From the NCBI GenBank assembly GCA_903935205.1, contig CAIZQU010000129.1:1-58478 (forward strand): DNA of 58,478 nt, written 5' to 3'. The DNA comes from an uncultured cyanobacterium. GTDB taxonomy: Bacteria > Cyanobacteriota > Cyanobacteriia > PCC-6307 > Cyanobiaceae. A model generated the notes under the pieces. The model was not told where the DNA came from, did no database searches, and saw only the letters and a program-made list of their open reading frames with translations. This document shows positions 50,510 through 55,640 of the stretch, piece after piece (within the stretch, counting starts at the first letter, position 1; each line of letters begins with the position of its first letter). Position numbers and translations under genes: made by a program.

Positions 50510-50651
50510 AGCCTGGGCCGGGCCCATGCCTTTGCCGCAGGGAGTGGCGGGCACCGGCCGGAGCCGGGCGCCTGGGCCGTCGGCGCCAGGGGCCGGGGCT
50601 GCCCGCTGCTTACGATCCGACGGCACGCGGCTCTGCGGCCTCCGGTTGTCC

Positions 50652-51959
50652 ATGCTTGATCAGCCCACCTCCAGGCCTGATGCCGCTCCGCAGGGCTCTG
50701 CTGGCTTGCCCGCCTGGTTGAGTCGGGGCCTGGCCGATCTGTTCCCGGCTGGCGTTACCGCTGATCCAAAGCCCACCGCCAAGGTCGCAGACCAACATCT
50801 CGCCGCCCGCCTGGCGGAGGCCGAGGCCGAGGGCCGACCGCTGCGGGTGAAGCTGGGCATCGACCCCACCGGCTCCGACATCCACCTGGGTCACGCGATC
50901 CTGTTCCGCAAGCTGCGGGCCTTCCAGGATGCGGGCCATACGGCGGTATTGATCATCGGCGATTTCACCGCCCGCATCGGTGATCCCACCGGCAAGAGCG
51001 CCACGCGGGTGCAGCTGAGCGCCGATCAGGTGGAGGCCAACGCCCAGACCTACCTGGCTCAGCTGGGCCAGGGGCAGGATCCGGCCCGGGCCCTGCTCGA
51101 TTTCGACACGCCAGGCCGGCTGGAGGTGCGACGCAACAGCGAATGGCTGGCGGCGATGGATCTGGCGGCGGTGATCGACCTGCTCGGCACGAGCACGGTG
51201 GGCCAGATGCTGGCGAAGGAGGATTTCGGCAACCGCTATGGCTCGGGCACGCCGATCTCGCTGCATGAGTTTCTTTATCCCCTGCTCCAGGGTTACGACT
51301 CGGTGGCGATCCGCTCCGATCTGGAGCTGGGCGGCACCGATCAGAAGTTCAACGTGGCGATGGGGCGTGATCTGCAGCGCCACCATGGCCTGCGGCCCCA
51401 GTTCGGAATGCTGCTGCCGATCCTGCCGGGGCTGGATGGGGTGCAGAAGATGAGCAAGAGCCTGGGCAACACGGTCGGGCTGGCGGAGGATCCGCTGTCG
51501 ATGTATTCGAAGTTGGAAAAGCTGCCGGATGCGGTGGTGAACGACTACCTCAACCTCCTCACCGATCTCGATCTCGCCGCCCTGCCGGCCAATCCGCGCG
51601 AGCGCCAGAAGGCGATGGCCCTTGAGGTCACCCGCCAGCGCCACGGCGAGGATGCTGCCCGCCAGGCCCAGGCCGATGCGGCCCGGCTGGTGGCCGGAGC
51701 GGCAGGGGCGGGGGCGGCCATTGCGGAGGTGCCCGAAGCTTCGTTAGCGGCGGTGAATTTCCCGGCCAAGGCTTTCTATCTGCTCAGCGCCGTGGGGCTT
51801 TGCAGCAGCAGCGATGCCCGCCGCCAGATTCAGGGCGGTGGCGTGCGGCTCGATGGCGAAAAGCTCAGCGATCCCAACCAGGTCTTCGCCGATGCGGCAT
51901 CCCTGGATGGCAAGGTGTTGCAGCTCGGCAGGAAGACCTTCCGGCGACTGGTGGGCTGA
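50652..51959 (+). CDS. tyrS: Tyrosyl-tRNA synthetase
   Basis: TyrS charges tRNA-Tyr. The 435-residue class I enzyme has [15 protein letters not shown] (HIGH-like), the [13 protein letters not shown] stretch, the KMSKS loop in [11 protein letters not shown], and an S4 RNA-binding domain at the end ([18 protein letters not shown]). The frame is open upstream, but MLDQPTS at 50652 is the first sensible start. HLGH and ELGGTDQ suggest the TyrZ-like branch. Confidence 0.96.
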
Positions 51960-52313: not shown

Positions 52314-53668
52314 ATGGCTTGTTCCGTTCTCCATGCGCTCCGCCGCCGTGGCTGCAGCGGCCGCGGCGGCGCCGGACTGATCCCAGGGCCGTTGCCAGCC
52401 CTGGCCAGCGCCGCCCTTCTCAGCGCTCCTGCCGCCCTGGCCGCTCCGCTGACGATCACCGCACCGATCCAGGTGCCGCTCCATTGGACGCCGATCAGCT
52501 CTGGCTTCCCGATGCCCACCCGGAAGCTGGGCCTCTATGTGGCCCTGGGGGGCGGCAGCAGCCCGCAGTTGTTTGAGTTCGACACCGGCGGCGCCGGCTT
52601 CTACCCGGCCTACTCCGAGCACGTGAACTGGTGGGGGGCCGATCAGCAGGCGAACACGCCCTATAGCGACTTCAGCCAGGGCTACAACAGCGGCAACAGT
52701 TACGCGGGCCAGGTCGTCACCACCTCCGTGTCGCTCTACGGCAGCGCCAGTGCTCCTGCGCCCCTGTTCACCGCCACCGATGTGGTGGTCGGTCGGGCCA
52801 GTCTGATCACCAACAGCGCCGGCAGCACCGTCTGGAGCAACGCCTCGACCGCTGCCACGCCGCCCCCCCTTCTCGGAGCCTTCTGGGGTGACTTCGGCAT
52901 GGCCCCCAAGCAGGGCCAGCAGGGCCAGCAGGGGCTGAACCCCAGCAGTCCCAGCGGCGGCCCGACCATCGACAGCCTGATCTCCCAGCTGGCCTTCGGC
53001 ACTGGCGTCACGGCCGGCTATCGCGTCCATGCCTCGTCCGAGAACCCCTGGGTGCAGTTCGGCCTGGGGCCAGCCGATCTGCTGGACCTCCCCACCAGCT
53101 TTGCCCTCAACTCTGCCGGCCTCGGTCAGCCACGGGCGTGCCTTACTACGACCCCAAGGTGATCACGGGCGGCCTGCAGCTGAGTCTGGGCAGCAGCGGC
53201 TTTGCCAATGCCGACACCGGCATTCTCTTCGACACCGGTGCTTTCACCACCATCCACCAGAGCGGTAACAGCACCGTACCGCCCACGAGCCTGCCCAGTG
53301 ATCTGGTCAATCCTGGGGTCGGCTATCCCTACGCCTATCTCCAGCCCGGTTCCCAGGTGGTGGTTGGTGCTCAGAGCGTTGCCCTCGGCAGCTGGACCCC
53401 GTTTCTGACCTTCGAGGCCGGTACGACTGTTGATCAGAACCTGGTCGATATTCAAACGGATTCTTACTATTTAAACACCGGTATCCTGCCGTTCCTGAGC
53501 CATGACATCATCTACAACCTCCAGGGCGCCCAGCTGACGCTGGTTCCCCAACCAACACCCGCGCCCGTGGCTGGGGCCGGGCTGGCGGCGGCCGGCGCCC
53601 TGAGCCGCCGCCTGCGACGTCTGGCTGCCAGGGCCCGGCGAGCCAACGGGCCTCTGGCCCTGCCCTGA
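52314..53668 (+). pseudogene. Secreted pepsin-like (A1-type) aspartic protease homologue, frameshifted
   Basis: The gene reads in one frame from 52314 to a stop at 53162 and continues in another frame to 53668. One extra C in CAGCCACGGG (53127-53136) would join them as Q-P-T-G-V-P-Y-Y, giving about 451 residues. A signal peptide ends near AALAAP (about 43). Lobe 1 has LFEFDTGGAGFY with Asp90; lobe 2 has ILFDTGAFTTIH with its Asp codon at 53231. LLGAFWGDFG and ILPFLSHDIIY fit the psi-loop hydrophobic-hydrophobic-Gly/Pro positions. The C-terminus (PAPVAGAGLAAAGALSRRLRRL) resembles a PEP-CTERM-type tail. Pseudogene, sequencing error or recoding are all possible. Confidence 0.6.
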
Positions 53669-53683
53669 GCTGACAGCGGCCGA

Positions 53684-54514
53684 TCAGAGCCCGTCGCCGT
53701 TCGGCTCGCGGCGGGCGCTGATCCAGGTGGCGGAGAGCCAGGCGCCGCTGGCGTCATACCGGCGGATCAGCCGCTCCAGTCGGTCGGGGGCGGGCAGCCA
53801 GCCGGCCTCCACGCTGAAGGGCTGGCGGTGGCTCACCTGCAGGGGAGCCAGGCAGTAGCCGCTGTCGGGTAGGAGCAGGAGCCGTTCCGGCACCTGACCG
53901 CTGCTCTGGCTGGTGTCCCCGATCCGGCTTTCAAAGCGCAGGCCGCCATCCGCTGCGGCGCTCACCGTCAGGGTGGCGGCGGCGAGATCGGGTTCGGGCC
54001 AGTCGGCCTGGATGGTGGCGGCCTGGCCGCTCCAGCGGCCGAGCAGGGCCTCCGGTTCCAGGGCTGGTCGTTCGCTGGCATCGCTGCCGAGGCGGAACTC
54101 GCGAATCAGCACCAGGCTTTCCAGGGCGCCCTCCGGGCTGTGGAGCTGCACGAGCCGGTGGCGGCGATCCCCAGCCACGAAGCCGAACTCCGCTCCGAAG
54201 GCGGTGGCTGGCGCCACCTGCAGGGAGCCCTTGCAGAACGATCCCGAGGAGAAGAACACCACCTGCCGGCCGAGGGAGCGGTATTCCTGGCGGATTTCGC
54301 GGGTGGGGGCCGTGTCGCGGCCATTGCCCCAGCGGCTCAAGCTGAAATGCACCAGCCTCTCCCCCTCCCCCTTCTCCAGGCAGAGCAGGGAAGGGGTGGT
54401 ATCGAGCACCCGACCGTTGGCATCCAGGGAGGCGAAACTGCCCTCCCAGGCGCCGAGGTTCTGCAGGAAGTTGTCCCATTGGCTGCTGGGCTTGGCGGCC
54501 GTGGCGCTGCTCAT
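53684..54514 (-). CDS. DUF3598-like (calycin fold) protein
   Basis: The 276-residue protein starts MSSATAAKPSSQWDNFLQNLGAWEGSF, which resembles DUF3598 proteins of cyanobacteria. The predicted beta-rich sequence fits two calycin-like barrels: one before FFSSGSFCKGSLQVAP, and a second after ALLGRWSGQAATIQ. The function is unknown. Distant relatives of the calycin fold in cyanobacteria include bilin lyases of the CpcS type, but I see no specific evidence for that activity. The ATG at 54514 is preferred, since the frame above it lacks similarity. Confidence 0.6.
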   Translation of the reverse strand: MSSATAAKPSSQWDNFLQNLGAWEGSFASLDANGRVLDTTPSLLCLEKGEGERLVHFSLSRWGNGRDTAPTREIRQEYRSLGRQVVFFSSGSFCKGSLQVAPATAFGAEFGFVAGDRRHRLVQLHSPEGALESLVLIREFRLGSDASERPALEPEALLGRWSGQAATIQADWPEPDLAAATLTVSAAADGGLRFESRIGDTSQSSGQVPERLLLLPDSGYCLAPLQVSHRQPFSVEAGWLPAPDRLERLIRRYDASGAWLSATWISARREPNGDGL

Positions 54515-54662
54515 CGCGGCTGGGTCAGGGTGGCTGCGGTCATGATGGCGGCTGGCGAGGGATGGCGGCTGGCCTGGGTCAGCCAGATCCCGATCGATGG
54601 CGCCGACCGAGGGATCCCTGCTGCCAGTGGACAGGAGATCTTCAAGGACCGGATGGGAATAG

Positions 54663-55640
54663 CTAGCTGCATAGCGGTATGGAACCGTTGAAGGCCTCAG
54701 CAGTGTGATCACCGGCTAGGGTGCCATCCTTCTGGGGAAAGGCTTGGTAAATCCATCCAAAATCTGGGGTCTTGATCAGGTTGATCTTGGCGTATCTGCC
54801 CTGGTGTTCGACCAAAAAGGGCTCCGACACGCTCTCGCCGCTACCGTCTTGCTCGGACCAGGAGACGAGGAACACATTCGGCAGATAGGCTCTGTTGGTT
54901 GCCTCGGCCGCGTCGACGATCAGTTGCCTGATGTGGGGATCGGACAGGCTGTAGCCAATGAAGATGCAGGGATCCTCGATGAAGTGGACCAGAAGCTTGG
55001 CGAATGAATAGCGGTGGGTAATTGAGAAATCTTTGTAGTCGGATGGCAGGATGATGATGCTGTCTGGATCATCGATCGAGCCGTGGGCGTGGAGCACCAC
55101 GCCCCCTTTGTCCTGCCGGTTGACTTGGCGGCCATTGTGTTTGCAGTAGCCGAGAAAATCGGAGAGGAAATTGTCATAGTTCGTGGTCACAATCTCCTTG
55201 GCATCCATTGCCTTGAGCGAGGCGAGCTCGGCCGAGAATTCCGTGTTGATGCTGCGATGCTCTCCAATGATCTTTGCGACCATGCGCTTGAAAAAGACCT
55301 TGTAGGAAACTCGGGAGTCGTAGAGATGATGGTCAAAATATTGCCTGCCCTCTTCGCTCCAGGCCCAGTCGTGTACTCGTTCGGCAATGATATCAGCGAC
55401 TTCGATCAGGTCGTCGTCGAAGGCGGTCTTGTCGGTTTTCTGCAGATAAAAATCAAGCCCTCTCCTGTCGCCAATCAGCGCCAAGACTTCCACCAGCAAG
55501 GCATACCATCCTGGGGTGTTCAGATAGCGCCTGGACAGGCCGGCACCGGCGAAAAGTATGGGTCGTGATTGGCTGGTGGCTTCCAGTTGTGTGCTGATTT
55601 TTGCCTGTACAAGCTGCCGATAGGATTGATTTGCTGGCAT
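54663..55640 (-). CDS. SIR2-like NAD-binding protein, possible defence NADase
   Basis: The 325-residue protein is a compact SIR2_2-type domain. FAGAGLSRR (about 30-38), TTNYDNF with Asn154, HAHGSIDDP with His186 and GYSLSDPHIR (229-238) are the family's NAD-site motifs, all intact. Related domains are the NAD-depleting effectors of Thoeris, DSR, Avs and CBASS defence systems. No second domain and no adjacent partner gene are visible, so it would act alone or with a distant gene. Base composition is clearly less GC-rich than its neighbours, which suggests acquisition. The ATG at 55640 matches family N-termini. Confidence 0.82.
   Translation of the reverse strand: MPANQSYRQLVQAKISTQLEATSQSRPILFAGAGLSRRYLNTPGWYALLVEVLALIGDRRGLDFYLQKTDKTAFDDDLIEVADIIAERVHDWAWSEEGRQYFDHHLYDSRVSYKVFFKRMVAKIIGEHRSINTEFSAELASLKAMDAKEIVTTNYDNFLSDFLGYCKHNGRQVNRQDKGGVVLHAHGSIDDPDSIIILPSDYKDFSITHRYSFAKLLVHFIEDPCIFIGYSLSDPHIRQLIVDAAEATNRAYLPNVFLVSWSEQDGSGESVSEPFLVEHQGRYAKINLIKTPDFGWIYQAFPQKDGTLAGDHTAEAFNGSIPLCS

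Follow-up and report, generated by a model that had tools for sequence, protein, structure and literature searches.

A probable exported pepsin-like protein in a split gene

The gene at 52314-53668 of the window, the whole 58,478-nucleotide stretch of DNA analysed here, probably encodes a pepsin-like aspartic protease homologue that has two lobes and is exported. The protein would belong to a rare bacterial family not yet covered by Pfam or NCBIfam, and in this strain it would be inactive if the lesion in its gene is real. The source is a draft genome of 3.82 Mb in 169 contigs, with a completeness of 99.3%. The family was found in 3 of 42 congeneric genomes: the source genome, Cyanobium sp. 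FGCU52, and a lake MAG of an uncultured Synechococcaceae. In the last two the homologues are intact and single-frame (440 aa in FGCU52, 426 aa in the MAG). Coordinates of the features are collected in Table 1.

Table 1. Features of the two-DTG gene in window coordinates. Conservation refers to five full-length proteins: that of the window (its two pieces taken as one), those of FGCU52 and the MAG, and two from Azospirillum.
Feature	Position	Strand	Remarks
First frame	52314-53162	+	ATG ORF, 282 aa, to TGA; signal-peptide-like start and N-terminal half
Proposed signal peptide	52314-52445	+	Arg-rich start, Ala/Leu-rich hydrophobic stretch, ALAA; from hydropathy and inspection only
First DTG (FEFDTGGAGFY)	52581-52589	+	Proposed first catalytic Asp, residue 90; kept in 5/5
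DFG of FWGDFG	52890-52898	+	Near the position of pepsin's first psi-loop glycine; DFG in 5/5, preceding FWG in 3/5
Frame-loss stretch	53112-53135	+	Codon HMM 53127/53135; homology 53114-53126
Second frame	53123-53668	+	C-terminal half and tail, to TGA
Second DTG (ILFDTGAFTT)	53231-53239	+	Proposed second catalytic Asp; kept in 5/5
NTG	53474-53482	+	Near the position of pepsin's second psi-loop glycine; kept in 5/5
PEP-CTERM-like tail	53552-53665	+	Pro-rich, hydrophobic, then SRRLRRLAARARR; similar tails on other proteins of the genome

Both window frames matched the intact FGCU52 protein in order, the first over residues 27-261 (54% identity, E 3.9e-56) and the second over residues 263-438 (53% identity, E 3.2e-40). 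In a three-way alignment the window protein was 53% identical to the FGCU52 protein and 46% identical to that of the MAG. Judged by these alignments, 52314-53668 is one real gene split over two frames, and the claim of the first-pass annotation that a gene had been divided by a loss of frame was borne out. The same annotation had placed the break at 53127-53136. When other ORFs were used to train an HMM of codon usage, it too lost the frame there, ending one frame at 53127 and starting the other at 53135; by homology the break may sit slightly upstream, as similarity of the second frame to the homologues begins at about 53114-53126. The first frame runs on for about 14 codons past the end of homology before it meets the TGA. 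GC content by codon position was 0.63/0.59/0.86 before the break and 0.65/0.53/0.75 after it, a coding pattern on both sides, in line with the gene-like codon use that had been described.

Changes private to the window protein were counted at 30 of the 204 core positions before the break (17 for FGCU52, 19 for the MAG) and at 18 of the 131 after it (7 and 29, respectively). Before the break the window thus has more private changes than either relative, and there was no rise behind the break. Since both halves are still conserved and coding-like, the lesion should be recent or an artefact, and we take the frame break to be a recent mutation or an assembly error. These are two of the three origins originally offered. 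The third, read-through, did not hold up, because the homologues are single-frame and need none. A programmed frameshift was likewise rejected as the main reading, as in both relatives a single unbroken frame encodes the protein; inspection by eye gave no slippery heptamer at the break. Comparison of the junction in related genomes, proposed at the outset, thus showed two uninterrupted relatives. An old pseudogene is unsupported, given that window-only changes do not rise after the break. We also considered a poor assembly with many indels, and an audit of codon-HMM junctions, 13 on the plus strand (that of the two-DTG gene included) and 12 on the minus strand, showed no further clear break. 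Three of the plus-strand junctions, read as translations, resemble ordinary gene boundaries; the remaining ones were judged by stop positions alone, and a further break may exist. If the lesion is real, translation would end within about 15 codons of the break, the second Asp and the tail would be lost, and the product would therefore be inactive.

Distribution and genomic setting

The annotation had claimed great rarity, and searches of increasing breadth agreed: apart from the three congeneric genomes, no other full-length cyanobacterial match appeared in the genomes sampled. A scan of public genomes (one genome per species, 84,980 species) confirmed 2 of 68 candidate stretches, those of FGCU52 and the Synechococcaceae MAG; it used two short peptide patterns, which distant relatives would escape, and the source genome possibly lay outside the set. 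Among 400 genomes of the bacterial family (a Cyanobiaceae-level sample) there were four matches, the three already named and one in a further genome (G139) that concerned the tail only. Neither 388 sampled genomes of the class nor 386 of the phylum, the latter searched with a broader profile, gave a match besides the source genome; the family, class and phylum draws overlap and are samples only. A virus or phage origin was rejected, as no relative of the two-DTG protein was present in the viral contigs or phage records searched. In the source genome itself, contig C117 gave a weak N-terminal match with an internal stop, which we took as chance. A literature search on bacterial or cyanobacterial pepsin-like, PEP-CTERM-linked and Cyanobium aspartic proteases returned, among the matches listed, no title describing the family; its coverage left most subscription papers outside.

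Plasmid records yielded one match, in Azospirillum sp. B510 (E 3e-4; 27% identity, with 75% of the query covered), and A. lipoferum 4B holds a copy 84% identical to the B510 protein. Cyanobacterial and Azospirillum proteins were related at E 6e-11 and 27% identity by BLASTP, and by hhalign at a probability of 97.9 (E 3.1e-13) over most of their length, both DTGs included. On these comparisons the Azospirillum plasmid protein is a distant full-length homologue.

The gene in the window lies between a tRNA-synthetase gene on its 5' side (tyrS, 50526-51959, with PF00579 and S4) and a DUF3598/BFA1 gene on its 3' side (53684-54712), which is on the opposite strand and 15 bases away. A promoter scan at the two-DTG gene found none, and the one terminator-like site was no better than chance. 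In FGCU52 and the MAG the gene adjoins UbiD (by Pfam), and the window copy sits elsewhere. The two UbiD proteins are 91% identical and their neighbouring two-DTG homologues about 51%, so the family evolves fast. At 20 BFA1 loci in other genomes tyrS was found within about 1500 bases on either side, contig permitting, in none (0/20), and hence nothing points to a conserved tyrS-BFA1 site that lacks the gene; this comparison left out nine other listed loci, and the window's own BFA1 locus is also without a nearby tyrS, the two-DTG gene intervening.

Proposed export and tail sorting

Features of export and sorting had been claimed, and the window does show an Ala-rich hydrophobic N-terminal stretch and a C-terminus that is Pro-rich, hydrophobic and then Arg-rich. 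A hydrophobic stretch at the N-terminus and an end that is Pro-rich, hydrophobic and Arg-rich are common to all three cyanobacterial proteins, and in each a basic cluster follows the hydrophobic C-terminal stretch, as PEP-CTERM tails require. PEP-CTERM cargo is described, in the available text of the source, as exported proteins with a near-invariant Pro-Glu-Pro, little Cys and much Ser, Thr and Asn (PMC1569441). Pro-Glu-Pro occurs in FGCU52 only (VPEP); the window has PTPAP and the MAG protein is without PEP. The mature window pieces resemble such cargo in being free of Cys and rich in Ser (10.9%) and Thr (9.0%), with Asn at 4.1%; the MAG homologue has only 4.7% Ser.

An exosortase (PF09721) scored above the cut-off in each of the seven genomes searched, the source genome included. 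The source-genome exosortase is above the cut-off of TIGR04178 and below that of cyanoexosortase A (TIGR03763), and its gene adjoins one that reads like a putative nucleotide-sugar epimerase. Similar tails occur on at least two other proteins of the source genome, among them an NlpC/P60 protein and a short one from contig C114. The tails of the window, FGCU52 and MAG proteins gave no Pfam or NCBIfam match. PF07589 reached its cut-off in none of the seven genomes searched (source genome included), and two clear tails in G139 were unmatched by the curated tail models; the silence of these models on the window is therefore uninformative. One of two PF07589 candidates in the source genome (L041) was discarded, being the end of another protein and not a tail. 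Picocyanobacterial tails of the form PxP-hydrophobic-RRLRRR (L015 of G139; L024 and L039 of the source genome) fall below the PF07589 and NCBIfam cut-offs. Exosortase cargo in picocyanobacteria may be under-annotated.

Active-site motifs compared with family A1

The two DTG motifs reported earlier are confirmed, with Asp codons that start at 52581 in one frame and at 53231 in another. A homologue lacking either aspartate would have spoken against the original reading; both DTGs are present in all five full-length proteins, and the whole set of FEFDTGG, DFG, DTGA and NTG is kept in each. Like A1 enzymes, the intact chains carry two Asp-Thr/Ser-Gly motifs, one per half, the window's second being in the other frame. 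The distance from DTG to DTG is 212, 218 and 228 residues in three intact proteins, compared with 183 in pepsin, and the conserved Gly follows the two DTGs by 99 and 77 residues in FGCU52 versus 90 and 87 in human pepsin. In the window an extra in-frame DTG (53213-53221) lies six codons 5' of the conserved second one and is absent from the two close relatives.

Two further rules for A1 were compared. One expects each Asp-Xbb-Gly to be followed by Ser, Thr or Ala (PMC4814920, as far as its text is available): the second motif, DTGA, fits in five of five proteins and the first, DTGG, fails in five of five. The other expects two conserved hydrophobic-hydrophobic-Gly psi-loop motifs (PMC2761423, from the accessible text). 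A psi-loop motif had been claimed for each half; in the first half it stood, as FWG directly precedes DFG in the three proteins from cyanobacteria (the two from Azospirillum have FSG), and in the second half it did not, since the counterpart in all five is NTG, which is not hydrophobic, so the two-motif pattern is incomplete. An LLG at residue 186 is private to the window. With the strict A1 rules broken at DTGG and NTG, we regard the protein as pepsin-like and not as a member of A1.

In pepsin, the flap Tyr lies 43 residues after the first DTG Asp. In each of the four proteins, out of five, that were counted by hand, a pair of Tyr lies 29-37 and 35-44 residues past that Asp, and a non-significant hhalign alignment sets this tyrosine region against pepsin's flap. 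Pepsin chemistry suggests that an enzyme with no Ser/Thr behind its first DTG would have a higher pH optimum.

Neither intact homologue matched any Pfam or NCBIfam model, PF00026 and PF20729 included, up to E 5. PF00026 was found in 0 of 145 class genomes, but also in 0 of 14 control genomes, so that this search shows little. Sequence searches of the PDB gave chance-like matches or none, and a tblastn search of plasmid records with human pepsin found nothing. A comparison of the family profile with five pepsins fell short of significance: among 150 column shuffles, 15 equalled or exceeded the real score, and one shuffle gave an outlying 134.8.

Fold models

AlphaFold model 1, of the FGCU52 protein, was built without templates from three aligned homologous genes and is of low confidence (pLDDT 36.6, pTM 0.41). 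The top of its 184 Foldseek matches was BACE (E-value 0.29), and the second, 5enk, unnamed among the matches listed, we take to be BACE-1. Within the best 50 of the 184, five were named as an aspartic protease or a wheat xylanase inhibitor complex; that complex ranked sixth, and its inhibitor presumably has the pepsin fold. With VIA, 345 of 994 aligned chains reached Z of at least 2, and the best 50, which we considered, were all pepsin-fold chains, with Z of 4.6-5.4 (below 8 is middling on the scale of the tool) and rmsd of 3.3-7.7 over 116-190 residues; many of these 50 cover the first half only. Modelling of the MAG protein (model 2) was unsuccessful (pLDDT 28.4, pTM 0.20), and none of its 34 matches was pepsin-fold. 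The bilobed pepsin fold claimed initially is thus weakly favoured by model 1, a poor model that nevertheless leads to pepsin folds, though at weak E-values and Z, and disfavoured by the failure of model 2 and the lack of a sequence-level match. We regard a pepsin-like bilobed fold as likely but unproven on this modelling.

Alternative readings

The protein could have a pepsin-type fold and yet be no protease, serving instead as an exported binding or inhibitor protein in the manner of the plant xylanase inhibitor of family A1. We consider this unlikely. The departures from A1 near the active site, DTGG and NTG, would suit it, as would the xylanase inhibitor complex at Foldseek rank 6 and the fast divergence seen in the ~51% identity between relatives against 91% for UbiD, but both DTG aspartates persist in all five full-length proteins, in two phyla, and non-peptidase members of A1 are said to have lost the conserved active-site aspartates (PMC2761423, in the text available). 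Less probable still is a different fold altogether, that of an exported surface protein rich in beta structure, in which the two DTGs would be no mark of an aspartic-protease fold. Although the absence of a sequence match to any aspartic-protease model or PDB chain, the lack of a pepsin fold in model 2 and the non-significant pepsin profile comparison all lean that way, every one of the best 50 chains that VIA matched to model 1 has a pepsin fold, and two DTGs at pepsin-like spacing have been kept across ~27% identity.

A further reading concerns the break itself: the two pieces could be separate chains of a split protease, with a restart at GTG 53138. This codon does open the second frame just past the break, and both halves are coding-like, but no Shine-Dalgarno-like sequence was seen by eye before it, the second piece would be without a signal peptide and the relatives are single chains. 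We regard a split protease as highly improbable.

Relation to known systems and proposed function

The preferred reading remains an exported pepsin-like protease homologue. Two-lobed pepsin-like proteases were long held to be eukaryotic, and the first bacterial ones are described as being without signal peptides (PMC2761423, available text). The two-DTG protein resembles shewasins A and D and the A1 homologues of Shewanella, Colwellia, Marinomonas and Sinorhizobium medicae in having two Asp-Thr/Ser-Gly motifs per bacterial chain, and it shares Ala after the second motif with marine bacterial A1 homologues (PMC4814920, in the text available). According to the accessible parts of two reports, the bacterial A1 homologues have no signal peptide, and shewasin D resides mainly in the cytoplasm (PMC2761423; PMC4814920). 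What sets the window protein apart from these homologues is its signal-like start and sorting-type tail, a Gly behind the first DTG, the NTG of the second half and the absence of a PF00026 match. Retropepsin-like RimB, RloA and Rickettsia APRc have an aspartic protease motif in common with it. RloA proteins carry signal peptides, and retropepsins have one lobe and dimerise (PMC12239564, as far as the text is available), whereas the intact chains here contain two conserved DTG halves instead of the one lobe and one motif of family A2. The signal-like start, Pro-rich motif, hydrophobic stretch and basic end are those of PEP-CTERM/exosortase cargo, from which the window tail differs in its PTPAP and in matching no Pfam or NCBIfam tail model.

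An exported, tail-sorted pepsin-type protease in a picocyanobacterium had been called unusual. The rarity stands, but an exported aspartic protease in a bacterium is less unheard-of than was supposed, since mycobacterial PecA is described as an exported, surface-associated aspartic protease with two DTG/DSG motifs that, in Mycobacterium marinum, trims other surface proteins (PMC6819658, in the text available). The PecA/PE_PGRS domain PF20729 had no match in the cyanobacterial proteins, nor did a PE domain. By analogy, PecA serves as the nearest working model, without shared sequence evidence here.

The protein would leave the cytoplasm by the Sec pathway; its tail would hold it in the inner membrane until cut by the exosortase, and the released protein would end at the cell surface or in the exopolysaccharide. 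There the two lobes could bring the two aspartates together, activating water and cutting peptides near the cell. Putative targets are surface proteins, processed as by PecA, or external proteins that are trimmed. To our knowledge, no protease activity has been reported for any member of the family.

A wider reading, which we advance tentatively as a real possibility, is that picocyanobacteria and Azospirillum share a new family of bilobed aspartic proteases, exported and sorted by an exosortase, with a DTGG...DFG / DTGA...NTG frame unlike that of A1 and forming a separate bacterial branch. If true, an exported, exosortase-sorted bacterial family missed by current models would widen the range of places where such enzymes act. 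Studies of how the two-lobed fold arose would gain a new outgroup from it, bearing on whether lobe duplication is also bacterial. It would further provide a cargo resembling an enzyme for a sorting system in which, in the available text of one source, cargo mostly has no known function (PMC12188702).

Other two-DTG proteins in Azospirillum and Xanthomonas

In Azospirillum the family gene follows the gene of a second two-DTG protein, whose BLASTP match to the family protein was not significant (best E 0.066). An alignment of this sister group compared with that of the family reached a profile probability of only 5.7, at the C-terminal NTG stretch. The sister alignment found nothing in the 388 class genomes (a search run without a positive control) or in the viral contigs. 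The two adjacent genes, both for two-DTG hypothetical proteins, occur in the same order on plasmids of two Azospirillum species (L017:4670-6978 and L018:1842-4131); the pair has no Pfam match and adjoins NosP and a NahK/ErcS-type kinase. Further two-DTG hypothetical proteins, related to the first of the pair, are encoded on a Xanthomonas sacchari plasmid (L020:3899-5083) and on Azospirillum pAB510e (L019:3863-5176). The Xanthomonas protein matches PF20729 at E 0.037 as well as PF13650, both below cut-off.
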